From positions 24,267-88,266 of the forward strand of contig QZKU01000115.1 in NCBI GenBank assembly GCA_003598085.1: DNA of 64,000 bases, read 5' to 3'. Source of the DNA: Candidatus Abyssobacteria bacterium SURF_5. Its GTDB lineage: Bacteria > Abyssobacteria > SURF-5. This document shows, piece by piece, positions 35,686 to 52,126 of the stretch (positions within the stretch are counted from its first letter, which is position 1; the number at the start of each line of letters is the position of its first letter). Under the pieces are notes generated by a model. The model did not search any database and had not been told where the DNA came from. It saw only the letters and a program-made list of their open reading frames with translations. Position numbers and translations under genes: made by a program.

Positions 35686-37815
35686 CTACTTTTTCAGGGA
35701 CTGTGCGAAGGCGTGTGCGCTCGTATTCCAGGTATCGCGCTGCAGATACTCGTCAAAAACCCTCACCGCTTTGGCTGGATCTCCCTGCTCCTTGTAAACA
35801 AGCGCAAGATAGGCATACGCCTCGATGTTCCTGTCGGAGAATCGAATCGCCTGCTCCAGCGCTTTCTCTGCTTCCGAATACATTTTTCTGCGCAGATACA
35901 AATACCCGATATTGGAGCGACACTTGGAGAATTTCTGCCGGGCGGCGGCATCATGGTAGAAATGGGGGTTGTCAAAAAGATTTGACTCCAGGGTCTGCCA
36001 GTACTGTCGATCAGAGGCTATAAGCTGTGGAGAGAGGCGCTCAATCTTGGAAGCCTTCAATTCCATCAGCAATCCTGAGGGAACGGCGTAGTCGGCAATC
36101 CAATCAATCGGAAGCCCTTGATCGTAATACACCGGCCTCTCTGAGGCGAGTTTGCGATACAGCTTGAGCAGCAGGTAGGCGTTCAGCCGTCCCACCTTTC
36201 CGGCTCCATAGATGCCGTCGCTAGTATTCGGTGCGGCGCCATACTGTGAAAAAGCTTCTGCATAATCCTGTTCCGTCAAAAACGGCATTTCGGGAGCGTT
36301 GCGGCCAGCCTCGGTCCTGTACGAAAAATCGGAAAGCTTATTGACGCTGAGAATGGTTATATCGGGCCTCCTGCCCTGCACCCATTTGATGTACATCGGT
36401 ATGGCGTAAGCGGAATCAGTTCCTGCAAACAGGACTGTATCCGCGCGAAGACCGTTCACCAGCAACTGGCCATATCTTCTTCCAAAATCGTGTCCGCGCA
36501 GGCTTGCCGTGCGATAGTTGCCGATAGCGGCGCTGATCGGCAACAAGAGCCAAAGCGCCGCCAGCAGAACGGCCGGGAATGCATGCCGCCGCATCGTGCG
36601 CGACGCCCGTAGCGCCAGAAGATTTACCGCGCCAATCCCATATGCTATCCAGATGGAAGCGAATATCCAGGGCGGCAGAAAATATATCCGCAGAAGGTCT
36701 TGAGCGTTCAGATCGAGTTCGGTATTTGCAACGACAACGAGAAGGATGCCGGTGCAGGCGAATGCGGCCAGCGTGAAAACAAGCCATTTCCTTCCCTCTG
36801 CCCCGGCAAATCCAAGGGTGATGAGCGCGGGCACGATGAGAACAAGCGGGAGCGTCTCGCTGGCGCTCGCGGTGAAAAAGAATTTGAGCTGGCCGGTGAC
36901 CACCTCAAGCGGCCGCATCATGTCGAGGCTTCGATATTGTTTTCGCAGCATGTGGAACCAGAACGCATCCCAATTTGCGGGATTGCCCCAATTGATGGGC
37001 GGATTTGCTGCAGCCCGAATCGGCAGGTACAGATATATCGAGAGCCCGAGCAGGAACAGAACCAGACAACCCGCCAGTACGCGCGGCGACAGCGCGGCCT
37101 TCGGCTTGACGAGCACAACGTACAGCGCAACGGGAGGGCCGAGCAATGCGAGGGTCTGATGATTTCCCAGGCCCAGCCCGAAGAGGAGTGCGATCAGGAA
37201 AAGCAGTCCGATCTTCTGTGGAAGTGTGCTCCAGAGAACGACGAGCAGGAGAATCAGGCAGATAATGAAATTATTCAGAGCATAAACTTCGGCGGATAGC
37301 GACTGCTGCCAATACGTAGGTGAAAATGCGAAACAAAGAGCGGCCGCAGCCGATGCGGACCCGGTCAATATGCCGCCGATGGGAGATTCGACCAGATCGC
37401 GCGGCACAATTCGCGCGCTTACGTGCGGAAGCGTTTTGATGATTACCAGGGCCAGAAGCCCCGCCGCGGCGGAATTGAAAAGAGCCGACATCAAGTTAAA
37501 GCGGTAAGCGACGCTTCCGATCGGTAGCAGCGAAAACAGTTTCCCAACCAGCAGATATAGGGGATACCCCGGCGGGTGCGCCACTCCGAGATGGACCGCC
37601 GCCGTTATGAGCTCTCCCGAATCGCCGAATGTAATGGCCGGTGCGAGCGAGAAAATGTATACGAATGCCGCGCCCCCGAAAGAGAGAAGCGCAAACAACA
37701 GTTCGAACGGGCGAAAAAGCGCCGCGACCTCTACAGGGAAAAGCGGGCGATCGAGGAACGGCGGAGTTATCCGCTTCACGCGGCGCTCTATTTTCTGAAT
37801 GGGGGGAATTTCCAC
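35686..37815 (-). CDS. DUF2723 family GT-C membrane protein with TPR tail
   Basis: This 709-residue protein has about 12 transmembrane helices followed by a soluble tail. FGDSGELITAAVHLGVAHPP (about 63-82) and the following GYPLYLLVGKLFSLLPIG are the DUF2723 signature, with the acidic residues of the first periplasmic loop expected in GT-C glycosyltransferases. Residues from about 630 to 700 form two TPR units (NIGYLYLRRKMYSEAEKALE, AYLALVYKEQGDPAKAVRVF). It probably moves a lipid-linked sugar onto an acceptor in the periplasm. It is the last gene of the glycan operon and overlaps the radical SAM gene before it by 28 bases. Confidence 0.85.
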   Translation of the reverse strand: MEIPPIQKIERRVKRITPPFLDRPLFPVEVAALFRPFELLFALLSFGGAAFVYIFSLAPAITFGDSGELITAAVHLGVAHPPGYPLYLLVGKLFSLLPIGSVAYRFNLMSALFNSAAAGLLALVIIKTLPHVSARIVPRDLVESPIGGILTGSASAAAALCFAFSPTYWQQSLSAEVYALNNFIICLILLLVVLWSTLPQKIGLLFLIALLFGLGLGNHQTLALLGPPVALYVVLVKPKAALSPRVLAGCLVLFLLGLSIYLYLPIRAAANPPINWGNPANWDAFWFHMLRKQYRSLDMMRPLEVVTGQLKFFFTASASETLPLVLIVPALITLGFAGAEGRKWLVFTLAAFACTGILLVVVANTELDLNAQDLLRIYFLPPWIFASIWIAYGIGAVNLLALRASRTMRRHAFPAVLLAALWLLLPISAAIGNYRTASLRGHDFGRRYGQLLVNGLRADTVLFAGTDSAYAIPMYIKWVQGRRPDITILSVNKLSDFSYRTEAGRNAPEMPFLTEQDYAEAFSQYGAAPNTSDGIYGAGKVGRLNAYLLLKLYRKLASERPVYYDQGLPIDWIADYAVPSGLLMELKASKIERLSPQLIASDRQYWQTLESNLFDNPHFYHDAAARQKFSKCRSNIGYLYLRRKMYSEAEKALEQAIRFSDRNIEAYAYLALVYKEQGDPAKAVRVFDEYLQRDTWNTSAHAFAQSLKK

Positions 37816-39251
37816 AGGCTTCGCCTAAAGTTGTACCACATGTCCTTGTGAAATGGCATCTGGATCAGGCGCGGAAGTATGAAAAACAGGTGAAACGACT
37901 GCAATAGTAGTTTGTGCAGGTTGCGCCGCAGCAGCATTTCGATGACGCGCGGCTTCACAAACGGAATGAGCGTGAAAAGCGTCTGCACTTGCGCCAGCGG
38001 ACGAACGTCCTTCACGGAGCCGCCGCGGAAATAGTTGCGCTCACCCCCTTCTTCGATCGCTTCGATGTCGCCCGCCGTAAGAAGGCCTTCTCGGAGGGCG
38101 ATATCGATGATCTGCGTGCCGGGATAGTAACGCATCCAGAAGCAGTTGATATGGTCCGGCCTGACCCGCGCATACTGGCGAACGGCATCAACATAATCCT
38201 GCTGTTGATGGAGCGGAAGCCCGAAGATATGATCCACGTCGAGATAAATTCCCGCGCTTTTCACCGCCTCACACGCCCGCATTACCTGTTCATTCGTCTC
38301 GTTCCGATGGCATACTTTTCGCTTCAATTCTTCGTTCCAGGTCTGGATCCCGATTTGGATCCGTTTGCACCCTGCGTCGGCGAGAAGAAAAGCCACCTCG
38401 GCGTCGACGTTTTTCGCGCTTCCGATGCAGCGGAATATGACGCCGATCTCCTCCTTGTAGATTTTGAGGAAATCGGCCAGCCATTTCTTATCGCTCAGGA
38501 AATCGTCGTCAACGAAGAAGACCATTTTAAACGGGTACCGCCTGCGGCCCTGGACAAGTTCCTCGATCACATTCTGCGGGGAACGCTTTCGCAGAAACTT
38601 TCTGCCCCCGTACAGGCGGTGAAGGATATTGTTGCAGCAATAGGTGCAGGCAAACGGACATCCCCGGCTGGTAAGGACGTAGTAGATCTCGTCGTAGATC
38701 GGCACTTGCTTGCTGAAGATGCCCTTGTCGGGGAACGGAAGCGAGTTTATATCTTCGATCGGGGGACGCGGCGGATTCTGAATGATGGTTCCATTTGCTT
38801 TCGACCAGAGATTGGCGATCTCCGATACGCTTTTTCCGTCTCGCAGCGCATTCACCAGATCGAGCAGCGCGTATTCGCCTTCGCCTACTACTACGTAATC
38901 GACGAAGGGCTTCTGAATCACTCTTGTCGGCAGCGCTGTGGTGTGGATGCCGCCGAAAACAGTCGGCACGTCGCTCAGCTTTTTCAGCTCTTCCGCCACC
39001 GCGCACATCCACTGGTAATAATCGGTGACCACCGAGAAGGCGACAAGGTCGGGCTTCTGTGCCAGGATGCGCCGGGCTGTTCTTGCCGGTCGATTCGCGT
39101 ATTTATAGACGGCAGGTATGTAGAGATAGTTTGTGTCGAAAAGAAAGGATTCGAAGACAAGCGACGTCTCGTGGCCGTGCTGCTTGAGGACGGCCGAGAG
39201 GTATTCAATGGCGAGCGATTCAGCTTCTTTGTATACGAAGACAACTTTCAT
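37788..39251 (-). CDS. B12-binding-domain radical SAM protein
   Basis: This 487-residue protein has an N-terminal cobalamin-binding-like Rossmann domain (1-130: FGGIHTTALP, VDYVVVGEGE) and a radical SAM domain. The [4Fe-4S] motif is RGCPFACTYC, Cys198, Cys202 and Cys205. FVDDDFLSD and QIGIQTWNEE lie on the barrel. No D-x-H-x-x-G for base-off cobalamin is visible, which many family members also lack. The C-terminal 90 residues are basic and hydrophobic and may touch the membrane. Related enzymes methylate or rearrange lipids, antibiotics or hopanoids; the substrate here is unknown but probably glycan or lipid given the operon. Confidence 0.88.
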   Translation of the reverse strand: MKVVFVYKEAESLAIEYLSAVLKQHGHETSLVFESFLFDTNYLYIPAVYKYANRPARTARRILAQKPDLVAFSVVTDYYQWMCAVAEELKKLSDVPTVFGGIHTTALPTRVIQKPFVDYVVVGEGEYALLDLVNALRDGKSVSEIANLWSKANGTIIQNPPRPPIEDINSLPFPDKGIFSKQVPIYDEIYYVLTSRGCPFACTYCCNNILHRLYGGRKFLRKRSPQNVIEELVQGRRRYPFKMVFFVDDDFLSDKKWLADFLKIYKEEIGVIFRCIGSAKNVDAEVAFLLADAGCKRIQIGIQTWNEELKRKVCHRNETNEQVMRACEAVKSAGIYLDVDHIFGLPLHQQQDYVDAVRQYARVRPDHINCFWMRYYPGTQIIDIALREGLLTAGDIEAIEEGGERNYFRGGSVKDVRPLAQVQTLFTLIPFVKPRVIEMLLRRNLHKLLLQSFHLFFILPRLIQMPFHKDMWYNFRRSLWKFPPFRK

Positions 39252-39263
39252 CGGCGTCCGCGG

Positions 39264-40340
39264 TTAATTCACCTTCTCCCATTGTGCGGATGCCCGTACC
39301 CTGGCCGTCAGCACGTCGTACCAGCCGAGGACGATTCCCATCTGCTGGATAAGCGGAAAATATTGACCCGTAAGAATGATCGCGGGTAACGAAATTATGC
39401 CGCCCGCAACCGCCAGCTTCCAATCCCACCAGAAAACAAAGGAGACGACGTAGAGAAAAATCAGCGGAGAGAAGACCGCAAACATCCGGCGAATAGGAAA
39501 GATGAGCAGCCCGAAACCGCCGTAGCGGGGATTGAACAGCATGTGAATGTAATTGAAAAGAACCGGAATGGTGAGCGCCACTCGCCGGCGAATCTGTCTT
39601 ATCTCCGCTCGAAGCGTTTGAGGACCGGTCTCGTATACGATCGATTGATCGTCGATGACGGAACGGAACCCCTGCGAGCGCAGCCGGAAGGTTATCTCGA
39701 GGTCGTCGACCACAACGTCCGGCGGCAGGGCGGGCAGAACGCCCTTTCGAAAAGCCATCAGCTTGCCGTCCAAACTGATGCAGGAATCAAGCCTCCCCTC
39801 GAGCGTGCGCAGCTCCCAATCGGCGGCATGATATTTCATCTTGCTCCGTCCGAAGAAAGAGCGGGTATCTTCCACGATGGCCTTTCCTCCAACGGCGCCA
39901 ATGAGGTCGTGCGAAAAGCAGGTGACCAGCGATTTGATCGCATCCGGCTTGAGCAGGGTATCGGCATCGGTGACGACAACGATGTCGGAAGCGGCTTGCC
40001 TGATGCCGGTATTAATTGCATTAACTTTTCCGCGCGGCGATTGAAACACCTCGACGGGATATGTCGACGCTATCGAATGCGTCCGATCCGTGGAGGCGTT
40101 GTCCACAATTATGATCTGAAGCTTTTCGGACGGATAAACGAGGGCGCGAAGGTCCTTGATCTTCCGCGCGATGTTCCTTTCTTCATTGAATGCCGGCACC
40201 ACGATTGTGACCGGAGGCTCCTGTTGCACCCTCTGGATTTTCCTGTTGCGCACGAGATATCTCATCAGGAAGCGGTAACCGAAAAACAGAAAGCCTATAT
40301 AGAAGAGGAACAAAAAGAAAATGACGGTTGCCACATTCAT
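39264..40340 (-). CDS. Membrane-bound family 2 glycosyltransferase
   Basis: This 358-residue protein has one N-terminal helix (about 4-24), a GT2 catalytic domain and two or three C-terminal helices (about 285-340). TIVVPAFNEERNI opens the domain, VVVTDADTLLKPDAI carries the D-x-D metal motif, VVDDLEITFRLRSQG the acidic acceptor-side residue, and RQIRRRVA a Q-x-x-R-R-like motif. This is the layout of processive or membrane-associated GT2 enzymes such as poly-GlcNAc or hyaluronan synthase relatives. It lies 12 bases before the radical SAM gene downstream. Confidence 0.88.
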   Translation of the reverse strand: MNVATVIFFLFLFYIGFLFFGYRFLMRYLVRNRKIQRVQQEPPVTIVVPAFNEERNIARKIKDLRALVYPSEKLQIIIVDNASTDRTHSIASTYPVEVFQSPRGKVNAINTGIRQAASDIVVVTDADTLLKPDAIKSLVTCFSHDLIGAVGGKAIVEDTRSFFGRSKMKYHAADWELRTLEGRLDSCISLDGKLMAFRKGVLPALPPDVVVDDLEITFRLRSQGFRSVIDDQSIVYETGPQTLRAEIRQIRRRVALTIPVLFNYIHMLFNPRYGGFGLLIFPIRRMFAVFSPLIFLYVVSFVFWWDWKLAVAGGIISLPAIILTGQYFPLIQQMGIVLGWYDVLTARVRASAQWEKVN

Positions 40341-40359
40341 ATGTTTTGATTGTTCCGGT

Positions 40360-41436
40360 TCAACCGGCCGCCACGCGCCGGGCCAGCGTCCGGACTACGC
40401 TCGCAGGTCGAAACAGCACATTCAGCGTTTGATAGCATGAATGATAACAGTAGCATTTTCCGCTGGAAACCCGCTGCCGCGCCTCTTTCGAGGCTTTGCT
40501 CGCGCAGAGCCGGCCATAGTCATAGTCGAACTCGCGGAATAAGCCGAAGGGCTCGAGCATTTCGCACAGCGACGCCTCGCCCGACGCTCCGAGCACGAGC
40601 GTCATCGAGTCGGCGACACAGGGAATCACCTGCCGCCTCTCCCGGCGGATGCGCAGGAACTCGTCATAGTATCCCTGCATGATAATGTCGTAGACCGATT
40701 TCATCAGGGAGTGGTGCTTGCGCAGGCGCTCGAAGCCGCCGTAAAATCGCAAGACCTCTTTGATTTTCCGGATGAGCGGAACCAATTCCTCATCGGGCGG
40801 AAGGGCGAGCGATGCGTCCGCAGGTTTGCCGCGGATGAAATCGAAAGTGTGCAGGTCGGGCCGCAGCTTCTTGACGTGGTCGCGGATTTCATCAAAATGC
40901 AGATAATTGTCGGAACTGAGCACCGTATGGAATTTGATTGACAGGTTCGGCAACTCGTCTCGCAGCGGAGAAACGCGCCCCCACGTCTCCATCAATGAAT
41001 CGAAATTATTCGGGGTCCCGCGCATGCGGTCGTGCTCGGCGCCGATGCCATCGATCGAGAGGACGAGGTTGACCGTCGCCTCGCTCGCGGTAGAACAGAT
41101 TTTCTTGATCATCGACTCGATTCTCTCGGGCAACAGCGCGTTTGTCGGAAGCGTGATGTGTCGAATGTCGCTGTTTCGATAGAACAGCGAAACCGTTTCC
41201 GGAAGGTCTTCCCTCAGGAACGGCTCGCCGCCCGAAAGCAGAAGCCACGGAAAGGGGGGCATCGAATGGATTATTTTCTCCAGCTCAATCAGGTTCAATT
41301 CCGGATCGTCGGTAAGGGTCCTCTTCCAACTGAAGCATGAGCGGCAGCGGGCATTACATCGGCGCGTGACGTGGTAGATAACTTGAAATAATTCGCGCTT
41401 CTGAATCAGCGTGATATAATCGTGCAAAGCGCTCAT
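40360..41436 (-). CDS. Radical SAM protein with SPASM-like C-terminus
   Basis: From the ATG at 41436 this is a 358-residue protein; the frame extends further upstream but the start fits the ATGA overlap with the Dol-P-Man synthase-like gene. VTRRCNARCRSC has the radical SAM cysteines 27, 31 and 34, and LLLSGGEPFLREDLPE is the G-G-E-P SAM-binding motif. Six or more further cysteines lie in the last 90 residues (VIPCVADS, EASLCEMLE, GRLCASK, GKCYCYHSC), spaced as in SPASM/twitch domains that hold auxiliary clusters. Such proteins modify peptides, sugars or cofactors. The substrate is unknown. Confidence 0.85.
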   Translation of the reverse strand: MSALHDYITLIQKRELFQVIYHVTRRCNARCRSCFSWKRTLTDDPELNLIELEKIIHSMPPFPWLLLSGGEPFLREDLPETVSLFYRNSDIRHITLPTNALLPERIESMIKKICSTASEATVNLVLSIDGIGAEHDRMRGTPNNFDSLMETWGRVSPLRDELPNLSIKFHTVLSSDNYLHFDEIRDHVKKLRPDLHTFDFIRGKPADASLALPPDEELVPLIRKIKEVLRFYGGFERLRKHHSLMKSVYDIIMQGYYDEFLRIRRERRQVIPCVADSMTLVLGASGEASLCEMLEPFGLFREFDYDYGRLCASKASKEARQRVSSGKCYCYHSCYQTLNVLFRPASVVRTLARRVAAG

Positions 41437-42170
41437 CTGTTGTCCACCATGTACTTGAATTTCAGCGCCCACACCCGCCAAATCGCTTCCCAAACGATGC
41501 CGTAGGTGATCTTCGACTCGCCGATCGTTCGATCCACGAACACGATCGGGACCTCTTTCACGCGAAACCCTTTCTTCCAGGCTTTGTAGCTCATCTCGAT
41601 TTGGAAGGAATATCCGTTGGAATGGAAGCTGTCCAGATCGATTTGCTCGAGCAGTGAGCGGCGGAAACATTTGTAGCCGGCGGTCACATCCGTGAGGGGA
41701 AGGCCCGTAATGGTGCGCGCGTACCAGTTTCCGATTTTGCTGATGATAAGCCTGTTCAGCGGCCAGTTAACAATGCTGATCCCTTTCAGGTAACGGGAGC
41801 CTACCACCAGATCGGCTTCACGGATAACCTCGAGAAAATCCGGGAGGTACTTCGGGTCGTGCGAGAAATCGGCATCCATCTCAAAAACGTACTGGGCGTC
41901 TGTACTTTTCAGGGCATATTTGAAGCCGTCGATATAAGCTGAACCGAGTCCCATTCTCGCCGGACGGTGGAGCACATGCACCCGGCCGGTCTCGAGCGCG
42001 AATTGGTCGGCAAGCTCGCCGGTTCCATCGGATGATTTGTCATCTACGATGAGGATATGGTACTCTTCGCCCATCTCGAGTACCGCCGGAAGCAGCTTCT
42101 CGATGTTCTCGCGCTCGTTGAGAGTTGGTATGACGACGAGTGCCTTATTCGAGTTTGCCGGGCTGTTCAT
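41433..42170 (-). CDS. Dolichyl/polyprenyl-phosphate mannose synthase-like GT2
   Basis: This 245-residue GT2 enzyme is of the DPM1 kind: VVIPTLNERENIEKLLP (12-28), IVDDKSSDGTGE (41-52), FEMDADFSHDPKYLP with the Asp99-x-Asp101 metal site, VGSRYLKG, and GNWYARTITGLPLTDVTAGYKC. The family transfers mannose or glucose from an NDP-sugar to a polyprenyl phosphate, giving the lipid-linked donor used by GT-C enzymes such as the DUF2723 and TMTC-like proteins in this window. It overlaps both neighbours by four bases. No C-terminal membrane helices are present. Confidence 0.92.
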   Translation of the reverse strand: MNSPANSNKALVVIPTLNERENIEKLLPAVLEMGEEYHILIVDDKSSDGTGELADQFALETGRVHVLHRPARMGLGSAYIDGFKYALKSTDAQYVFEMDADFSHDPKYLPDFLEVIREADLVVGSRYLKGISIVNWPLNRLIISKIGNWYARTITGLPLTDVTAGYKCFRRSLLEQIDLDSFHSNGYSFQIEMSYKAWKKGFRVKEVPIVFVDRTIGESKITYGIVWEAIWRVWALKFKYMVDNR

Positions 42171-43306
42171 CCGGTTGCCTTTTTCCTCTCTTTTCGGTTC
42201 GTTGCCGCGCGCTCAATTGTCATTTCGATCTTCTCGACCGCTCTATCCCACGTAAATTCTCTGGACCACTCCAGGCTCCGCATCCCCAGTTGCTTTCGCA
42301 GCCTCTCGTCCTTCAGCAGGCGAACTATGTGTTTCGCCATGGCTTCCGTATCGGAATGGGGGTAGAGGAATCCCGTTTCTCCATCGAGGACCGACTCGAC
42401 CAATCCGGGCACTGCCGCGGCAACAACCGGTGTCGCGCATGCATTCGCTTCCGTCACGGTAAGTCCCCATCCTTCCTTCGCCGAAGGATTCACCACGACC
42501 TGCGCCCGGCGGTACAGGTCCATTTTCTGATCGTTCGCGAGGAATCCGGCGAACTCGACGCAGCCGTTGAGGCCGAGGCGCCGAACCATGCGATGCAGTT
42601 CAGGCTCGTAGTTTCCGCTGCCGGCGATCACCAGTCTTGCATTAGGGACCTCTTCCAGCACCTTTTTCATCGCATGGAGAAGCAGATGCACGCCCTTGTA
42701 TTTTTTGAGTCTGGTGACGCAAACAACGAGCGGCGATTTGGATCGCACGGACTCGTCGGGCGTGTAATTCAAATGATCGACGCCGTTGTAAACCACCTCT
42801 ACGTCTTCAGCCTTCAATCCTTTTTGAACGAGCTCGTTTTTTGTGCTCTCGCTGACGGCGACAAAGGGGACGCCTCTATAAAAAAAGGGAATAAGGAATT
42901 CCGTAAAGTGCACGTAGAGCGCAGCCGGAAGAAGCGTATCGCCATAGATCGACGTTCCATGAAGATGGTGTACCATCACGAAGAGCGGCTGGCGGACGTA
43001 CAATGGAGTGTAAAAGGGAATCTTGCTGCAGTCCTCCACCACGATATCGACGGAGTTCTTGAATTCGCGCATATATACGACTGGAACCGTATAATTGAAT
43101 GTATACCGATTGCCGCGCCTCACTATCCGAATCCCGTCAATTTGCTCCTCTTCCGGGAAAGATCTGTTGTGGCGGCTGCACAAGAGAGTTACCCGGTGTT
43201 CCCGGCGCACAAGCCGTTTGAAAATCTCCTGGAAATTCACCTCTGCCCCGCCCATATCGGGATTCCTGATGTCTCTCCAATTGATGACAAGGATTCTGTA
43301 ACTCAT
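42167..43306 (-). CDS. GT4 family glycosyltransferase
   Basis: This 379-residue GT-B fold enzyme starts MSYRILVINWRDIRNPDMGG; the G-G-A-E nucleotide-side loop follows. The C-terminal domain has VTRLKKYKGVHLLLHAM, the VVNPSAKEGWGLTVTEANAC stretch with the conserved E-x7-E donor-binding pair, and GLVESVLDGETGFL. I chose the start at 43306; the frame runs further upstream without family resemblance. The enzyme uses an NDP-sugar in the cytoplasm. The sugar and linkage cannot be read. Confidence 0.92.
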   Translation of the reverse strand: MSYRILVINWRDIRNPDMGGAEVNFQEIFKRLVRREHRVTLLCSRHNRSFPEEEQIDGIRIVRRGNRYTFNYTVPVVYMREFKNSVDIVVEDCSKIPFYTPLYVRQPLFVMVHHLHGTSIYGDTLLPAALYVHFTEFLIPFFYRGVPFVAVSESTKNELVQKGLKAEDVEVVYNGVDHLNYTPDESVRSKSPLVVCVTRLKKYKGVHLLLHAMKKVLEEVPNARLVIAGSGNYEPELHRMVRRLGLNGCVEFAGFLANDQKMDLYRRAQVVVNPSAKEGWGLTVTEANACATPVVAAAVPGLVESVLDGETGFLYPHSDTEAMAKHIVRLLKDERLRKQLGMRSLEWSREFTWDRAVEKIEMTIERAATNRKERKKATG

Positions 43307-43340
43307 ATAGAAAGTTGATCTTAGAGCCGGATTAGTACCA

Positions 43341-43937
43341 TTATACCACATCTCGCCGGGCGATCGGGCCGACATCGAGCCTCTTCTTATCGACCCGGAG
43401 GATGAAACAGACTTCGCTCGCCGGCAGCCAGTGGCAAAAGAACATGTCGTAGATTGAAGGAAAGAGATTGATGAAAAAGCCGATCCACTTGAGCACTCTG
43501 AAGCTGGAAAATACAAACCAGCGTTTTTCCATTACCAGCGGAAATCCTGCGCCGTAATTGGTGGAATTGCGCACCAGTTTCCATTTTTCATATATTTTGG
43601 GTCTTCCTACGATCTTGGTGTATCCGTCAAACGTTCTCCATCCGAACGGGATTTTATGGTCCGGATCGCCAAACCATTTGGAAGAAGGAAAATAGCTGGC
43701 AAAAACACGCAGAGTGCCGCCGTCCCGCGTAATCCTGATTATCTCCATGACGGTCTTGTGAAAGCTGTTCAAGTGGGCGAGCACGTGGTTGCAGACAACC
43801 TCGTCAAAGGAATCATCCTTGAACGGGAACGGCGTATGGTTGAGATCGGCGATAACATCCACACCCTCGTACGGCACGATATCGAGGTTCACGTGGGTTT
43901 CAGTCGCCAGGCTCCCACACCCAATGTTTAATTTCAT
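43341..43937 (-). CDS. Class I SAM-dependent methyltransferase
   Basis: This 198-residue protein begins MKLNIGCGS, a SAM-binding motif I, and has DDSFDEVVCNHVLAHL (motif post-I to II) typical of small glycan-cluster methyltransferases. A hydrophobic stretch WIGFFINLFPSIYDMFF (about 151-167) may attach it to the membrane. The C-terminal RVDKKRLDVGPIARRDVV is basic. It probably methylates a sugar or lipid head group in this locus. The acceptor is not evident. Confidence 0.82.
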   Translation of the reverse strand: MKLNIGCGSLATETHVNLDIVPYEGVDVIADLNHTPFPFKDDSFDEVVCNHVLAHLNSFHKTVMEIIRITRDGGTLRVFASYFPSSKWFGDPDHKIPFGWRTFDGYTKIVGRPKIYEKWKLVRNSTNYGAGFPLVMEKRWFVFSSFRVLKWIGFFINLFPSIYDMFFCHWLPASEVCFILRVDKKRLDVGPIARRDVV

Positions 43938-43979
43938 CTCGCTCCTTCAGTGCCGATATCGGTTTCCCGAGCAAGACAG

Positions 43980-45170
43980 TCAATTATTTTGAACGACCCA
44001 GCACTCGAACGTGCGCCCGAACGCTCTGTCGAAGATGCCGATCCAATCGAATTTCTTGCCGAGCTCGAGCGCGTTTTCGCGCATCGCGGAAATTTTTCCG
44101 GGCGATAACAAAAGATTTTCCAAAGCCGATCCTATTTCGTTCACGGCGGGTTCGACTGCGATTCCGGCGCCGCTCCTCTCGATCAGTTCGGCCACGGGCG
44201 GAACGCGCGAGATTACGACCGGCAGTCCCGCCGCGAGGTACAGCTTTACCTTGCCCGGATCGGCGAAGCGCTTGAATATGTTATCTCCATAAAGATAAGG
44301 GGCAACGGCTACGGCGCCTTCCGCAAGCAGAGCGGCCGCCTTTGCGCCGTCTTGAATGAAACCCAGGAACTCGACCGAATCGGCAACGCGCATTTCATGC
44401 GCCAGCGATTTAAGCGGTTCCATTTCCGGTCCGCTTCCGATCACCCTTAATCTGGCGTTCGGAATGCGTTTTCTTATTTTCGGCAGCGCCTCAATCACCA
44501 GGTTCAGGCCTTGCTCTCGCGCCAGGGTCCCGAGAAATACGATGAGGCCGTTGTCGCTCCCGTTTGGAGACGTTTTGGGCGATTCATCATACCAGTTGCC
44601 AAGCGGAACCTCGATTTGGGGAGCGGACCGCCCGGAATCAAAGCCATGTGCTTTCCGCGCGTCCTCCATCGCGGCTGAAACGTTCCAGACTGCGTCAGCA
44701 TCATAGCAGCACCAGCGGTCCAGCCTGCGATACAGCGACTGCATGAACGGGCGGCGAAACCTGTCGGGGGCATAATCGATCACGTAATAGACTACGCGAT
44801 CGACGACTCCGAGCCGCCTGAGCACAATTCCGGAGAAGGCGTTCAAATTATCCACGCCGAAGTAGAGATGAATTCGACGGCGCATCTTTTTCAGGTACCA
44901 GACGGTGAATATGATATCCTTCATTGCCATGAGCGGGAACGGGCCTCTGAAAAGAGGTGCGGAAATCTCTTTCCTGAGTTCGCCGTTCTCAAACATCGAG
45001 ATTTGTGTATTCAGAGGCACGTCGCGCGCATCTCTGAATGGGTGGCTGATGTACGTTACTGACTTCGCTTTTGGGAGCACATATCGCAGCAGTTCCTGTT
45101 CCGCTCCGCCTGTGGGAGTGTAGGTATGCTTCACAATCGCTATGTCCATTTGCGACAACCGGCCGTTCAT
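43980..45170 (-). CDS. GT4-like glycosyltransferase
   Basis: This 396-residue GT-B enzyme opens with MDIAIVKHTYTPTGGAEQEL after a short leader and has the C-terminal GT4 elements IVFLGTLAREQGLNLVIEAL, RLRVIGSGPEMEPLK, VEFLGFIQDGAKAAALL and GKVKLYLAAGLPVVISRV. The usual second Glu of the E-x7-E pair is not clear (DPGKVKLYLAAG), which suggests a divergent subgroup. M1 and M8 are both possible starts. It probably adds a sugar in the cytoplasmic phase of glycan assembly. Confidence 0.87.
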   Translation of the reverse strand: MNGRLSQMDIAIVKHTYTPTGGAEQELLRYVLPKAKSVTYISHPFRDARDVPLNTQISMFENGELRKEISAPLFRGPFPLMAMKDIIFTVWYLKKMRRRIHLYFGVDNLNAFSGIVLRRLGVVDRVVYYVIDYAPDRFRRPFMQSLYRRLDRWCCYDADAVWNVSAAMEDARKAHGFDSGRSAPQIEVPLGNWYDESPKTSPNGSDNGLIVFLGTLAREQGLNLVIEALPKIRKRIPNARLRVIGSGPEMEPLKSLAHEMRVADSVEFLGFIQDGAKAAALLAEGAVAVAPYLYGDNIFKRFADPGKVKLYLAAGLPVVISRVPPVAELIERSGAGIAVEPAVNEIGSALENLLLSPGKISAMRENALELGKKFDWIGIFDRAFGRTFECWVVQNN

Positions 45171-45194
45171 GCGAATTTCCTTTTGCCAACTGAA

Positions 45195-46595
45195 TCAACG
45201 GCGGGATGAGCGGCGCCAGATGCTTGCGAAAGATCGCAGGCCTGACAGGTTCGCCCTGACGTCGGCCCACCTTCGAACCCTCAATAAACGCCGAAGTAGA
45301 TAGCGGGGGCGCAGATAGAATTGCCGAACCGCCCTTCGATGATACCGCCTGACTAATTCAGGAGGGAGCGAGGTATCCGTATATGTCGGCCGCATATAAT
45401 CGAAACGCGACAAATCCTGCTCGACGGCTTTCCCTCTCTGCTCCGCCCGCGCGGCCAGTTCCGTGCCCGGCAGCGGCATGTAAATGGAAAATTCCGCGAT
45501 ATCTGAGTCGAGCTCCCGCGAGAAGGCAAGAGTTTTCTTCATGCTTTCCTCGGTTTCGCCCGGGAAACCAAGGATGTAATTTGCGACCGTCGCGATGCCG
45601 ATTTCCCTGGTCAACTTCATGTTTTCCCGTATGATCTCGAGTTTCAATCCCTTTTTGAGCACCTTGCTCAGCATCTCTTGATCGCCCGATTCAATTCCGT
45701 AGGAGATCAAAACGCAGCCGGAGTCGCGCATCATCTCAAGAACAGGGCGGGAGACCCTATCCAGCCGGGTCCCGCAAATCCATTTGAGACGCAGTTCCTT
45801 TAACATCGCGCACAGTTGCGTGAACCAATCAAGATTGAACGTCAGCGTATCGTCGTAAAAATACGCCCCCCGGATGCCGTACGCATTAATCAGAGACTCC
45901 AGTTCGGCGCGAATATTATCGACCGTTCGCAGCCTGATCTGCTTGCCGTGAACAAGTTCAGATGCGCAGAACGCGCAGCGGTAGGGACATCCGCGCGAGG
46001 CAATCAACGGTAAAGACGGCTGCGGAAGCGACCATTTGATGCGGTCGTGTCCGGAGGCGGCGAAATACCGCTGGATATCAACCAGGTGCCGTGCCGGCAT
46101 CGGCAACTCGTCAAGATTCACGATTCGGACAGGCGGCGGACCGATTGCGATCTCGCCGTTTGTCCTGATCAGGATGCCCGGTGTTTCGGCTGCTGCCTTG
46201 CGCACAGGATAAGCTTGAGCAAGTAATGGCATCACGTGTTCGCCCTCTCCGATTGCGACCATATCGGCTGAGCAGCCCTCGATCGCTTGTCGCGGAACGA
46301 CTGAGGGATGTATTCCGCCGAGGACTATCCAGCTTTCCGGCACAAGAGATTTCGCGAATGCCGCTATTTCCTTCGCATGCGGAAATAAGGGCGTAGTGCA
46401 GGTTATGCCGATCAGCTCCGGATTCCAGTCCCGCAACAGGCGGCGAAGTTCCACTCGGCCGGGGTCAAAGCCCAGATCATGTACTTTTACCGGCGCCTGC
46501 GCCTTCTCGAGAGCCGCCGCTATATACAGCAGTCCCAGCGGGGGATTCGCCGCGACGTGTGGGCTCGGGTTTATCAGGAGCGTCTTTGCAGTCAT
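45195..46595 (-). CDS. B12-binding-domain radical SAM protein
   Basis: From the ATG at 46595 this is a 466-residue protein. MTAKTLLINPSPHVAANPPL followed by GLLYIAAALE is the typical start of cobalamin-binding radical SAM enzymes, and VLGGIHPSVVP plus GEGEH complete the N-terminal domain. The cluster motif ASRGCPYRCAFC has Cys203, 207 and 210. YIFDDTLTFN-like (YFYDDTLTFNLDWF) and SYGIESGDQEML lie on the barrel. The Arg-rich last 60 residues look membrane- or nucleic-acid-associated. It is the second of two B12-type radical SAM genes in the locus. Substrate unknown. Confidence 0.87.
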   Translation of the reverse strand: MTAKTLLINPSPHVAANPPLGLLYIAAALEKAQAPVKVHDLGFDPGRVELRRLLRDWNPELIGITCTTPLFPHAKEIAAFAKSLVPESWIVLGGIHPSVVPRQAIEGCSADMVAIGEGEHVMPLLAQAYPVRKAAAETPGILIRTNGEIAIGPPPVRIVNLDELPMPARHLVDIQRYFAASGHDRIKWSLPQPSLPLIASRGCPYRCAFCASELVHGKQIRLRTVDNIRAELESLINAYGIRGAYFYDDTLTFNLDWFTQLCAMLKELRLKWICGTRLDRVSRPVLEMMRDSGCVLISYGIESGDQEMLSKVLKKGLKLEIIRENMKLTREIGIATVANYILGFPGETEESMKKTLAFSRELDSDIAEFSIYMPLPGTELAARAEQRGKAVEQDLSRFDYMRPTYTDTSLPPELVRRYHRRAVRQFYLRPRYLLRRLLRVRRWADVRANLSGLRSFASIWRRSSRR

Positions 46596-46639
46596 TTTAT
46601 TATAATTAATTGCATTATGAGATTCTGTGACCTCAATCC

Positions 46640-47650
46640 TCATTGACTCCAGTTGGAGCGATCGAGTTCTTGTGCCAGGAAGAGCGACCGGATCGTCGCA
46701 AGACCGTACGTCATCAGAGTGACCCAACAGACAACCGGATGAATGAACCACGCCAAATCTCTTTTGCGAGAATATCCGAGAAGCGCCTGAGCCAGCAGGG
46801 GAAAAAGAAGAAGTGTGCTCACAATGAATTTCAGGTAGCCCCAGAAGTACTGTTGATGCGGATACGTTCGGCGCCCGAGCTGTTTATAGTAAAGGAAATC
46901 CGAAATGCGCCGCTTTTGCTTCCGAACAAAAGTCTTGAGGTTCGGACAGTACAGATGGACAACCCCCTTCTTGACAAATGCAGCTTTTCGCCGGCCTTTG
47001 TGAACAAGTTGATGGATGATGTCGATATCGAAATAATAGGGGCGGTAATCAACTTCCTGGATCGCTTTTTTCCGGATCAGGCACCCATTGGCTCCCATTG
47101 TCGGAATGCAATTCTCGGTCAGGAGGACCTCGTAGTAATCCTCCCGATCGTGCATTTCGAGCGGCAACCCCGTCCATTTACCGGTCAACGTATTGAACCG
47201 GTCGTAGTTGCCGAGGAAAAGGTGGATTGGGTCGTTCATTCCGATTAACGCGCAGTAGCGGTCGATGATCGAATCTGAGAGCCGGTATGTGAGCGCGTAG
47301 CTTTCCGAACAGAAAATCTCATCATCTTGAAAGGGGATCGCCATCTTTTCCAGCCAATCCTCGCTATCGAGAATGTTATCGCTATCGATCAAAGCCACGA
47401 TTTCGCCCGAAGCCGCATCGATGCCGACTGCTTTGCCGGCCTCCCCCGTTTTCAGGGGATTCTGAAGGATTTTGTCGACCTTGAAGGAAGACGCGATTTC
47501 GAGCGTGCCATCATGCGAGCCGGCATCGACAAGGATAATTTCCACTCTTTCACGGGGATAGCGCTGCATCCTGATACTGGCGAGGCAAGCGGTGAGTGAC
47601 CGGCAAGAATTGTAGGTGGGAATAATGACGCTGACGAAGGGCGCGTACAC
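46640..47650 (-). CDS. Family 2 glycosyltransferase with C-terminal membrane helices
   Basis: This 336-residue GT2 enzyme has FVSVIIPTYNSCRSLTACL (5-23), a second motif IILVDAGSHDGTLEI, and VALIDSDNILDSEDWLEKM with the D-x-D metal site. GANGCLIRKKAI lies before the acceptor-side region, and the last 80 residues contain two hydrophobic helices (about 265-285 and 298-318). It probably acts at the inner face of the cytoplasmic membrane on a lipid-linked acceptor. It lies between another GT2 (12 bases) and a radical SAM gene (44 bases). Confidence 0.88.
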   Translation of the reverse strand: MYAPFVSVIIPTYNSCRSLTACLASIRMQRYPRERVEIILVDAGSHDGTLEIASSFKVDKILQNPLKTGEAGKAVGIDAASGEIVALIDSDNILDSEDWLEKMAIPFQDDEIFCSESYALTYRLSDSIIDRYCALIGMNDPIHLFLGNYDRFNTLTGKWTGLPLEMHDREDYYEVLLTENCIPTMGANGCLIRKKAIQEVDYRPYYFDIDIIHQLVHKGRRKAAFVKKGVVHLYCPNLKTFVRKQKRRISDFLYYKQLGRRTYPHQQYFWGYLKFIVSTLLLFPLLAQALLGYSRKRDLAWFIHPVVCWVTLMTYGLATIRSLFLAQELDRSNWSQ

Positions 47651-47662
47651 CGACCAAACCCC

Positions 47663-48721
47663 CTAGCTGTCCAAATGCTTCAGCATCAGTCCCCGAATAA
47701 AAGTTATTCCATATACAAAATGGGTCAACATCACTCCGATTGCGCCCAGCAACGCCACGTCGAGCCGACTTGCCGGCAAAAGCGAGACCAGCGCGAAACC
47801 AAAATAACAGAGCAGGCTGATGACGAGGATTGCGGCAACGACGTTCGAGAAGACTGAAAGGATAGACCCGAAGAACAAGATGGTCACCACAATGCTGGGC
47901 AGGAAATAGAACATGCGTCGCGACGTTTCGGGATACGTCTTGGCGAAGTATCCCCGATGCAGGCCGACATTGGCGATCTGTTTCAGGTGATCGAAGAAAA
48001 GGCTGCGCCGATGGTGAAAGACCACCACCTCGGGGCGGTAAAGAATCTTCTTGCCAAGCCTGATGATTTCGAGGCACATCTTCGTGTCTTCGCCTCCGTA
48101 GAACGTGGAGGAAAAGCCGCCGATCTTGCGCAAAATGTCCGTGCGCACCAGCAAGTTGAAGGCGGGAAAATCATCAACCTCTCGGGCTTTGCGCTGAATG
48201 AAGCGGTACAGCGCCTGTCCGCTCCCCATCGGAGAACTGTAGACGGCCCCGCTTGCTTGCGCCAGCAGGCCGTCCTCGGGAGGAGTAACGCCCGGCCCGC
48301 CGACAGCCGCGATTTCCGGCTTATCCAGGTAAGGAACGGCGCTGCGCAGCCAGTCGGGACGGGGATATGCATCATCATCGATGAACGCGCATATCTCGCC
48401 GGCGGCGTTCTTGATGCCGATATCCCTTTTTTCACCCGGACCAGTAATCTGTTTGCCGGTCGAAATGATCGAAACCAGCCCTTCCTTCCTTAGGCGCTTC
48501 AAATTGCCGACCCGCGGATTTGTCGCCTCATTGAGGTTCGGCTCGTCAACTATGATCAGAATCTCGAAATTCGGATATTCCAGATTGCGGAAATGGCCGA
48601 AGTCTTTCAGGAATCTCTCGCTGCACGTGTGAAGCGCTATGATCACGCTTACCTTCGGAACGGGCGGACCCTCCTCCTGCGGCTGATGAAACAGCCGGAC
48701 ACGCATATCAGTATCTGTCAT
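47663..48721 (-). CDS. Family 2 glycosyltransferase with C-terminal membrane helices
   Basis: This 352-residue GT2 enzyme has VPKVSVIIALHTCSERFLK (21-39), AAGEICAFIDDDAYPRPDWL with the D-D-D metal motif near 116, AVGGPGVTPPEDG, and YGGEDTKMCLEIIRLGKKIL, the E-D motif before the acceptor side. Three hydrophobic helices follow (about 265-345). The N-terminal MTDTDMRVRLFHQPQEEGPP is an unusual hydrophilic leader. Its start overlaps the preceding GT2 gene by 14 bases. Confidence 0.88.
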   Translation of the reverse strand: MTDTDMRVRLFHQPQEEGPPVPKVSVIIALHTCSERFLKDFGHFRNLEYPNFEILIIVDEPNLNEATNPRVGNLKRLRKEGLVSIISTGKQITGPGEKRDIGIKNAAGEICAFIDDDAYPRPDWLRSAVPYLDKPEIAAVGGPGVTPPEDGLLAQASGAVYSSPMGSGQALYRFIQRKAREVDDFPAFNLLVRTDILRKIGGFSSTFYGGEDTKMCLEIIRLGKKILYRPEVVVFHHRRSLFFDHLKQIANVGLHRGYFAKTYPETSRRMFYFLPSIVVTILFFGSILSVFSNVVAAILVISLLCYFGFALVSLLPASRLDVALLGAIGVMLTHFVYGITFIRGLMLKHLDS

Positions 48722-49520
48722 AATGCCTCAGAATATACAGTCTGTAGAAGATGGCCATGGTGTCCCACCACGTTGTGTAGATATCGGTCGGACGAACCCA
48801 GCGCCTGATCTTCTTGCCGATATTGGGTCGGTAATCCACAACCACCGGCGCCTCAACGATCGTAAAATCGTGCCGGTGCGCCAGGACCAGCAATTCCAGG
48901 TCAAAAGCGAATTTCTTCACCAGCATTTGCGGAAATACTTTTTCGAGCACTTGCCGCTTGAAAAGTTTCAATCCCGTCTGGGTATCATGGATCGGCAGGC
49001 GGAACAGCAGCTTGACCATGAAGAAATATACCATGCTCACAATCTTGCGGTGAAACGGATAATAGAGCTTTGATTGCGGGTGCCTCTTGGAGCCAATGAC
49101 GACGTCAGCGTCCGCCCCCCTCATGTGATCAAAAAAAAGCTGCAACTGGCTCGGATGCAGGTCGAGGTCCGCATCGATGAAAACGATAGTATCTCCCTCG
49201 CTGTACTTGAAGCCTTCCCGCAGGGCGCCGCCTTTTCCGAGGTTCGTTTTGTTTTTAACCAGCTTGACGCGCGAGTTGTCGGCCGCAAAACGAGCAGCCT
49301 CTTCGTACGTATTGTCGGAGCTGCCGTCGTCAATTACGATAATCTCGAAGTCACGGCTGGTTTCGCGCAAGAACGCAAACGTCTCTCCGAGGTTGTCATA
49401 AATGCCGGCCCCTTCATCATGAGCAGGCATCAACACCGAGAGTTTGCCCGGAAATTCGTTTTTTGTCCGGGTGCCGCAAATGCAGGGTTCGGACTGTTTC
49501 ATTTTGAGGGATTTTAGCAT
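48708..49520 (-). CDS. Family 2 glycosyltransferase, polyprenyl-phosphate sugar synthase type
   Basis: This 270-residue GT2 enzyme has LSVLMPAHDEGAGIYDNLGE (28-47), IVIDDGSSDNTYEE, NLGKGGALREGF and TIVFIDADLDLHPSQLQ with Asp116-x-Asp118. HDTQTGLKLFKRQVLEKVFP (about 178-197) is the loop seen in DPM/ALG5-like enzymes, which load a sugar onto a polyprenyl phosphate. An N-terminal Cys-x-Cys (EPCICG) is unusual. The start could be ATG 49520 or the ATG six codons later; neither has a clear ribosome binding site. Confidence 0.88.
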   Translation of the reverse strand: MLKSLKMKQSEPCICGTRTKNEFPGKLSVLMPAHDEGAGIYDNLGETFAFLRETSRDFEIIVIDDGSSDNTYEEAARFAADNSRVKLVKNKTNLGKGGALREGFKYSEGDTIVFIDADLDLHPSQLQLFFDHMRGADADVVIGSKRHPQSKLYYPFHRKIVSMVYFFMVKLLFRLPIHDTQTGLKLFKRQVLEKVFPQMLVKKFAFDLELLVLAHRHDFTIVEAPVVVDYRPNIGKKIRRWVRPTDIYTTWWDTMAIFYRLYILRHYDRY

Positions 49521-49553
49521 AAATGCTTGTCACAATTCAAGATTAACAGTTTG

Positions 49554-50879
49554 CTAGATCGACGTGCGGGGAACGGCGGAAGCTTCGGGCAGCGGCTTTT
49601 TTGCCTTTGCCGGATGGAATGTAACGATGGAAATCGAAATGAATAAGGCAAAGCCGCCGGCTGTTAATGTCAGCAGAACGGACATCGGCGTCTGATGAAA
49701 GACTGAAATGGCGGCGAACGTCAACAACGTGAGCGGCAGCAGGAGCCACAGAAAAGAATAGCGTTCATTCGCGAGATTATAATTGACCAAAATAGTCGTG
49801 GCGGCAACTGGAGTGATAGCGATTCCGAACAGTTTAATCAGCGCAACTAATTCAGGCGAATCGGTTTTTCCGAGAAACAGCGCCACATAGCGCGCCAGCG
49901 CAAAACAAATGACAATGCCTCCTAAAGACAGGACGATCTCTATAAGCAGTCCGCGTTTTAGTATCGGCAGCGTATTTTCGCCCGTCGCCTTCTTCCGGGC
50001 CACCTTTGGGAAAAGCGCCAGGGTGATGCCCAGTGGAAGAAACAGAAAGCTCTTTCCCACGATCGAGGCGGTGGCGTAGTAACCCGCCAGTCGGAGACCG
50101 TCGCCCACGTCGCCGTAGAAATGCCGAACGAGCGCAATGTCCAGATTGCAGAAGAAGCTCAAGAAGAAAAGCGCCGCGACCACAGGCAAAGCGAAGAGAT
50201 ACATCTCCTTCATCTGCACTTCGGCGCTTTCAGCGACCGGCGCCAGAACAGGACGAAAGGCCGGGAAGCCAACCATGAAGGAGAGAATGAACGAAAGAAG
50301 AACCCCGAATAATACGCCGCCCACGCCCCACCCGATCAAGGCGAACAGTATCCCCAACCCGCACTTTGAAATGAAGCCGACGAAGTAGGATATCCCCAGA
50401 TAATTGAACCGTTCTCGACCTTGGAGAACCGCCCAGAAAACGGGCAATAGATACATGAAGAAAAGCAGGAATCCAGCCACTATGATCGGGGCAGTGCTTC
50501 GAATTTTGAAGAAGTCGCCGATCAAGGGAGCGCCGAGAATTGTTCCGACCATCAACACACATGCGACGATGCCGACACGCTTCAAGCTTCCCAGAAACAG
50601 TTGTCGCACTTTCGCGGCTTCTCCCGTTGCGGAATACTGCGCAATAAACTTTGTTATCGTTGTCTGGATGGTCACGATCGGAATTGAAATGATGTAGAGG
50701 AGCGACAGCAGAGAGTTTAATGCGCTGTACCCTTCCGGCCCGAGATTTCGGCTCATGAAGATGTGAAAGTAGAAATTAAAAAGATTGCCCAGCCCGATGA
50801 TGATGATCAGGAACCCTTCATCGAAGAGGCTCTCTCGGCAACGCGCCGGCGCGGGCATTTGGATTGCTGTATCAGACAT
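49554..50879 (-). CDS. Polysaccharide flippase (Wzx/MATE-like)
   Basis: This 441-residue protein has about 12-14 hydrophobic helices and the N-terminal segment HIFMSRNLGPEGYSALNSLL (about 37-56), typical of the polysaccharide-biosynthesis (RfbX/Wzx) branch of the MOP superfamily. Family members flip lipid-linked oligosaccharides from the inner to the outer face of the plasma membrane. It is the first gene of the 13-gene glycan operon, behind its own promoter. No Wzy polymerase with clear signature is seen in the locus. The final residues are hydrophilic. Confidence 0.85.
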   Translation of the reverse strand: MSDTAIQMPAPARCRESLFDEGFLIIIIGLGNLFNFYFHIFMSRNLGPEGYSALNSLLSLLYIISIPIVTIQTTITKFIAQYSATGEAAKVRQLFLGSLKRVGIVACVLMVGTILGAPLIGDFFKIRSTAPIIVAGFLLFFMYLLPVFWAVLQGRERFNYLGISYFVGFISKCGLGILFALIGWGVGGVLFGVLLSFILSFMVGFPAFRPVLAPVAESAEVQMKEMYLFALPVVAALFFLSFFCNLDIALVRHFYGDVGDGLRLAGYYATASIVGKSFLFLPLGITLALFPKVARKKATGENTLPILKRGLLIEIVLSLGGIVICFALARYVALFLGKTDSPELVALIKLFGIAITPVAATTILVNYNLANERYSFLWLLLPLTLLTFAAISVFHQTPMSVLLTLTAGGFALFISISIVTFHPAKAKKPLPEASAVPRTSI

Positions 50880-51001: not shown

Positions 51002-52126
51002 CTATGGCAGGAGCCGCATCGCAACCTCGTTCGCGAGCCGCCACCCGTCAAATGTGGAACGGATCGTGTCATCCTCGTACTCGATGTATCCTTCTGTGAC
51101 CATTTGCTCGAACGAACCTCCGAATAGCTCGACCGGGTGGACTCCAAACTTCGTCCTGAAAGAAGAGCAATCGATCCTCTCGCTCAATCGCAGCCGCTGG
51201 ATCATGGTCTCGATAGCCTGCATCCGAAGCGGAATATATTCTGCCTCCTCCACGGCATGTCCTCTCCGGCACACCGCTTCCATGTAGCGGACGGGGTCAC
51301 GGACGTTTACCACCCGTTTTCCGTCGAGATATGAGACGGCGCTTGCACCCAGGCCCAGATATTCTCCGTTCGACCAATAGACAAGATTATGGCTCGCGCG
51401 TCTGCCCGGCTTGGCGAAGTTCGAGATCTCGTAATGCTCGTATCCCGCTCGAATAAGAATTTCCCGCGCCGCCTGATACAGTTCGAGTTCCTCTTCCGCC
51501 GTTTTCCTTCGAAATGTCCCCGCTTCCACGAGGGAATCGAAGGGAGTCCCCGGCTCAACAGTCAGGCAGTAGGTGGAAAGATGCTCCGGCGCGAGCGAAA
51601 CGGCTTCTTCAAGCGAATGCCGCCAGCTTTGTATCGTTTGGTCCGGGATCGCAAAAATCAGGTCAAAATTGAGGTTCTTGATGCCGCTGCCGCGGATGAT
51701 TTCGTTCGCCCGGTAAATGTCCTCGCTTCCGTGCAGTCTGCCGAGTGTCGTCAGCTCGCTGTCAATGAAGCTCTGGGCGCCAAGGCTTACGCGGTTGCCG
51801 CCAGCCGAGATAAAAGCATCTATTTTTTCCCGCTCTACGGTGCACGGGTTGGCTTCAAGCGTGATTTCGGCGCCGGTAGAAATATGGAAAGAAGAACGCA
51901 ACGAATGAAAAAGGCGGGTTATCTGAGCGGCGCTTAAGACGGTGGGTGTTCCGCCGCCTATATGGAGTGTTCTGACTGTTGAAACGTGCTTCGCCCTCTG
52001 CCGGATTTCCTCGCCAAGCGCCTCAAGGTATCGATCGACGGAACCAGCGGCCGGCACGGACGCGAAATCGCAGTACGGACATTTGGAACTGCAGTAAGGA
52101 ATGTGTACATATACGGCTTCTGCCAT
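51002..52126 (-). CDS. hemW: HemW-like radical SAM haem-handling protein
   Basis: This 374-residue protein has the oxygen-independent coproporphyrinogen oxidase fold but the HemW pattern: VHIPYCSSKCPYCDF with cysteines 12, 16 and 19 (C-x3-C-x2-C) and no N-terminal extension of true HemN. LHIGGGTPTVL, the G-A-Q-S-F barrel strand (VSLGAQSFIDSEL) and HYEISNFAKPG follow. HemW binds haem and is thought to insert it into respiratory proteins, fitting a respiring host. The gene is 15 bases downstream of lepB, an arrangement seen with lepA in many bacteria. Confidence 0.92.
   Translation of the reverse strand: MAEAVYVHIPYCSSKCPYCDFASVPAAGSVDRYLEALGEEIRQRAKHVSTVRTLHIGGGTPTVLSAAQITRLFHSLRSSFHISTGAEITLEANPCTVEREKIDAFISAGGNRVSLGAQSFIDSELTTLGRLHGSEDIYRANEIIRGSGIKNLNFDLIFAIPDQTIQSWRHSLEEAVSLAPEHLSTYCLTVEPGTPFDSLVEAGTFRRKTAEEELELYQAAREILIRAGYEHYEISNFAKPGRRASHNLVYWSNGEYLGLGASAVSYLDGKRVVNVRDPVRYMEAVCRRGHAVEEAEYIPLRMQAIETMIQRLRLSERIDCSSFRTKFGVHPVELFGGSFEQMVTEGYIEYEDDTIRSTFDGWRLANEVAMRLLP

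Follow-up and report, generated by a model that had tools for sequence, protein, structure and literature searches.

Radical SAM (rSAM) enzymes that act on sugars are known mostly from antibiotic pathways, and a literature search on rSAM enzymes in connection with glycan loci found nothing relevant. Likewise, no paper was found that treats rSAM enzymes in Abyssubacteria, the word "radical" being absent from the SURF paper (PMC6121073). The locus considered here, from Candidatus Abyssobacteria bacterium SURF_5, invites comparison with two further systems: O-antigen and capsule loci, which likewise contain rows of GT2 and GT4 glycosyltransferase genes, and eukaryotic TMEM260/dolichol-P-mannose O-mannosylation, which employs the same GT-C domain with its GDSGEL...HPPGYPL motif and whose DPM1-like synthase has a counterpart in the same locus. 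The present system differs from the eukaryotic one in being bacterial and in standing among GT2, GT4, and radical enzymes. The region from 49520 down to 35686 is probably a surface-glycan assembly locus. The pathway most likely depends on polyprenyl-P-mannose and leads to a surface glycan or glycoprotein; a GT2/rSAM pair would form its core, and B12-rSAM enzymes would tailor the product in an exchangeable manner.

The locus lies in the window, i.e., the whole 64,000-nucleotide stretch of contig QZKU01000115.1 that was analysed and to which all positions refer unless another contig is named; the genome comprises 5,103,455 bases in 145 contigs (SURF_5 is described as 5.1 Mb in 145 scaffolds, with a GC content of 54.7%; PMC6121073). 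ORF analysis of the window confirmed the order and strand of the thirteen-gene row put forward by the sequence-only reading, all genes being on the minus strand in the same direction, with intergenic distances of -28 to +44 bp that fit co-transcription; internal ATGs are the probable starts of B12-rSAM1 (46595), GT4b (43306), and the SPASM-like rSAM gene (41436). By Pfam, the row holds five GT2 and two GT4 enzymes (the seven glycosyltransferases of the sequence-only reading), an eighth glycosyltransferase of the TMEM260-like GT-C type, a methyltransferase-like protein, and the three rSAM proteins. Two of these combine a B12-binding with a radical SAM domain, the third has cysteines near its C terminus, and all three retain CxxxCxxC; they correspond to the two B12-type and one SPASM-type enzymes of the sequence-only reading. 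Five of the glycosyltransferase genes are GT2a (48708-49520; PF00535, 1.3e-34; 77-79% identity to syntenic genes in both relatives described below), GT2b (47663-48721; PF00535; syntenic, 70-74%), GT2c (46640-47650; PF00535; syntenic, 69%), GT4a (43980-45170; PF00534; syntenic, 58-61%), and GT4b (42167-43306; PF00534, 1e-42; syntenic). The expected methyltransferase (MT, class I-like, 43341-43937) was recovered as a PF08241 match (5e-9), which is weak and covers a short stretch, though the gene is conserved in relatives (syntenic, 72-76%). Three rSAM genes among 13 exceed the genome-wide density of approximately 65 among 4482 genes (hypergeometric P 0.0008, indicative only because post hoc); about 15 of the 65 rSAM domain matches in the whole genome are long B12-rSAM proteins.

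Comparison with the other two Abyssubacteria genomes (G001, a groundwater assembly labelled Poribacteria, and G002, SURF_17) separates constant from variable genes, with the limitation that the genomes analysed are fragmented assemblies. The order GT2a, GT2b, GT2c, GT4a, MT, GT4b, DPM1-like, SPASM-like rSAM, GT2d, TMEM260 is identical in both (tblastn identities of approximately 56-83%), whereas B12-rSAM1 (45195-46595; PF02310, PF04055) has a 70% ortholog in the same place in SURF_17, making two of three genomes, and none that could be found in the groundwater assembly (best match 34%). B12-rSAM2 (37788-39251; PF02310, PF04055) occurs at this place in the present genome only; no ortholog was found in place in either relative, where GT2d and the TMEM260 gene are directly adjacent. 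Conversely, a gene for a YfhO-like large membrane protein lies between GT4a and MT in both relatives (L091 6921-9281 and L092 15465-17978) and is missing here, and a GT87 gene precedes B12-rSAM1 in SURF_17. Because the core order is kept while B12-rSAM1, B12-rSAM2, YfhO-like, and GT87 genes vary, the locus consists of a constant core interrupted by slots whose content is exchangeable. In the groundwater assembly, conservation extends to the downstream block (nucleotidyltransferase, SPOR protein, and pyrimidine genes). The sequence-only reading had proposed looking for the same gene set in relatives, with rSAM genes that fail to travel with the glycosyltransferases counting against its interpretation. 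The glycosyltransferase core (syntenic in two of two relatives) and the SPASM-like gene (in the same place in three of three genomes, and accompanied by GT2d in two more phyla) support that interpretation, B12-rSAM1 does so in one of the two relatives, and B12-rSAM2 does not; only one of the three rSAM genes, the SPASM-like one, is a core member.

At the upstream end, the supposed flippase fared less well. This multi-spanning membrane protein (49554-50879), flippase-like by eye, had no match in Pfam, even at E = 1, or in NCBIfam and resembled none of the solved flippases (also by PDB sequence search and hhalign), and its AlphaFold model (pLDDT 42.6) was discarded; the flippase reading rests solely on hydrophobic sequence and was set aside. 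Its ortholog in the groundwater assembly (69% identity) sits on contig C220 behind lepA, signal peptidase (lepB), and hemW, away from the contig with the glycosyltransferase locus, and the gene therefore belongs to that side: it adjoins the locus and is outside the conserved core. A HemW-like rSAM gene immediately upstream of the row (51002-52126) brings the count to four rSAM genes in 14 and, as a member of the lepA-lepB-hemW row, is probably unrelated to the glycan core.

The glycan role of the locus is supported by the synteny of the core glycosyltransferases together with two informative homologies. The DPM1-like GT2 (41433-42170; syntenic, approximately 80% identity) is a near full-length match to dolichol-P-mannose synthase (5mlz, E 7e-31, residues 7-236 of 245), and the TMEM260-type GT-C with C-terminal TPRs (35686-37815; syntenic, 56-58%) carries a PF11028 domain (1e-42), matches the TMEM260 structure 9rql (1e-32), and has in common with it the motif GDSGELITAA..LGVAHPPGYPL. 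Both genes point to polyprenyl-phosphate-hexose (polyprenyl-P-mannose) chemistry, as judged from these matches, and their proximity in a bacterium offers a setting in which to ask what the TMEM260 family does outside eukaryotes. By homology, the DPM1-like enzyme would make a polyprenyl-phosphate-linked hexose, probably mannose; the GT2 and GT4 enzymes may assemble a lipid-linked glycan; and the TMEM260-type enzyme, acting outside the membrane, would take a hexose off the polyprenyl carrier and attach it to an acceptor, either protein or glycan. The contrast drawn with O-antigen and capsule loci is reasonable: of the hallmarks of a Wzy-dependent locus (Wzx, Wzy, and an initiating transferase), profile searches of the locus proteins matched neither a polymerase nor an initiating phosphoglycosyltransferase and gave no match for the flippase-like gene, and the DPM1-like and TMEM260-like genes indicate polyprenyl-P-mannose chemistry.

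The most interesting part of the locus is the pairing of the SPASM-like rSAM with GT2d. The rSAM protein (40360-41436; syntenic, 68% identity) has its radical SAM cysteines (C27, C31, and C34) invariant in 13 homologs, and C-terminal cysteines at C273, C291, C328, C330, and C334. SPASM/twitch auxiliary-cluster cysteines are defined by the motif CX9-15GX4C, which is present as C273-X12-G286-X4-C291 and is likewise invariant. Since only C328-x-C330-xxx-C334 is found besides this motif, in place of the full SPASM pattern CX2CX5CX3C-gap-C, the protein probably has one auxiliary cluster and is closer to the twitch type than to a complete SPASM protein. Against the curated models of known SPASM-type equivalogs (NirJ, AhbC, PqqE, and others) it stayed below cut-off, the best score being that with NirJ1 (58 of 650 bits). 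The predicted model (pLDDT 86.7) resembles two enzymes with sugar substrates, BlsE (Z 21.9 over 294 residues) and DesII (Z 19.1 over 302 residues), each at 14-15% identity, although the substrate here is perhaps lipid-linked. The peptide-acting SkfB (Z 22.6) and SuiB (Z 21.6) match as well as BlsE, so that a sugar substrate is unproved by the fold; anSME is similarly placed, GDGT-MAS synthase scores lower (Z 16.7), and, with different functions tied in Z, the comparison singles out none of them. The fold does not reveal the substrate; a sugar or glycolipid as substrate is argued from the constant GT2d partnership.

GT2d (39264-40340; PF13641) resembles a membrane GT2 of known structure (PDB 6yv7, 4e-19). 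Besides the three Abyssubacteria, the SPASM-like subfamily was present in four of four Coatesbacteria genomes examined (one of which, G064, is G035 under a second label, with an identical contig) and in Nitrospinaceae AH-679-O07, and GT2d orthologs (238-584 bits) occur in all eight of these genomes, including the other two Abyssubacteria. No ortholog was found in the 31 other genomes searched (top score 124 bits; best paralog anywhere 134 bits), giving a Fisher P of 1.6e-8 in which genomes within a phylum are non-independent and the 31 were picked among genomes with previous rSAM matches. What truly supports the pairing is its presence in three of three lineages, only about three being independent, together with adjacency in the Nitrospinaceae genome. 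There, GT2d and the SPASM-like gene overlap by 4 bp next to a DPM1-like gene; in Coatesbacteria, the two lie on separate contigs, several of which bear other glycosyltransferase genes, and GT9 and flippase-family genes adjoin the SPASM-like gene. Synteny and co-inheritance thus show the SPASM-like enzyme and GT2d to be a pair; in a putative reaction, the former may modify a sugar or lipid that is either product or substrate of GT2d. It is tentatively proposed, at somewhat less than even confidence, that an undescribed rSAM/GT2 pair common to Abyssubacteria, Coatesbacteria, and one Nitrospinaceae performs radical chemistry (e.g., epimerisation, dehydration, or dehydrogenation) on a polyprenyl- or lipid-linked sugar, with the B12-rSAMs adding genus-specific changes. 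If true, such a constant partnership, found in the surface-glycan loci of three phyla, would make it possible to test radical tailoring of structural glycans on a defined set of two genes.

The expected C-methylated or carbon-linked sugars are one possibility among several: the rSAM proteins of the locus scored below cut-off with every characterised rSAM family, and what they resemble ranges from methylases and a diol dehydratase to cyclases, a decarboxylase, and peptide maturases. Both B12-rSAMs fall far under the curated cut-offs of known equivalogs (HpnJ, BchE, AprD4, PhpK, and others): the nearest solved structure to B12-rSAM1 is the radical SAM diol dehydratase AprD4 (E 1e-30), but its family score is 137.9 bits against a cut-off of 500. 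An unlikely alternative is that the rSAM enzymes act on the glycan-carrying lipids (a polyprenol or membrane lipid), in the manner of hopanoid-, ladderane-, or tetraether-type enzymes, rather than on sugars. It draws on the top NCBIfam scores of B12-rSAM1 (BchE, 178 of 481, then HpnJ) and B12-rSAM2 (HpnJ, 116 of 578), on a score with the lipid family TIGR04072, on the GDGT-MAS fold match, and on the lipid-facing nature of GT2d and the DPM1-like enzyme. The BlsE and DesII fold matches exceed that of GDGT-MAS, however, and the locus neighbours are sugar transferases with no lipid-synthesis gene matched among them. Membership in an HpnJ/hopanoid locus was rejected on the scores; a setting rich in glycosyltransferases also distinguishes the B12-rSAM proteins from the HpnJ and BchE families.

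Less probable still is protein modification, whereby the TMEM260-type and DPM1-like enzymes would O-mannosylate exported proteins and the rSAM enzymes would modify peptides or proteins. The conserved TMEM260 motif and the similar Z of SkfB, SuiB, and anSME speak for it, but the SPASM-like gene goes with GT2d even in the Nitrospinaceae genome, which has no TMEM260 match at 1e-15, and the pair is for this reason independent of TMEM260.

In the glycan-assembly reading preferred here, the two B12-rSAMs would be optional tailoring enzymes that genera gain or lose, comparable to the YfhO-like and GT87 genes in the relatives' slots. Among the matches listed for the three Abyssubacteria genomes, 27 of 50 B12-rSAM genes have a GT2 or GT4 match no more than 10 kb away, a distance that covers 12-14% of the genome (P 1.5e-5, 1.2e-5, and 0.003 per genome, under a null of uniform placement that contig ends make conservative and with the window's own two genes counted). 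That rSAM genes are merely abundant in this lineage and share no function with the glycosyltransferases is very improbable overall, since the genome-wide abundance of rSAM matches, the patchiness of B12-rSAM1, and the lack of conservation of B12-rSAM2 at this place are outweighed by this enrichment and by a SPASM-like gene fixed in place and co-inherited with GT2d, chance placement being possible for B12-rSAM2 alone. The best match of B12-rSAM2 (36% identity) is from outside the Abyssubacteria family, which is suggestive only of horizontal gain; its composition (GC 0.538, GC3 0.689) resembles that of its neighbours and so gives no sign of such a gain. The proteins most similar to it, at 34-36% identity in G036, G043, and G046, are likewise encoded near GT2 genes.

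Three further observations were made in passing. On contig C9 of an unrelated genome (G043; L095 12107-17874 and L163 3416-8357), a further glycan region dense in rSAM genes holds, within approximately 25 kb, GT2 genes together with a SPASM-like rSAM gene and four or more of the B12-rSAM type. On a Nitrospinaceae contig (G060 contig C19; L158 7286-12196), a 727-aa ORF matches both GT2 and the SPASM-like rSAM, a possible fusion, and is followed by a B12-rSAM gene. Lastly, elsewhere in the window (22842-24713), a pentapeptide-repeat protein of 623 aa is encoded near a TPR protein.
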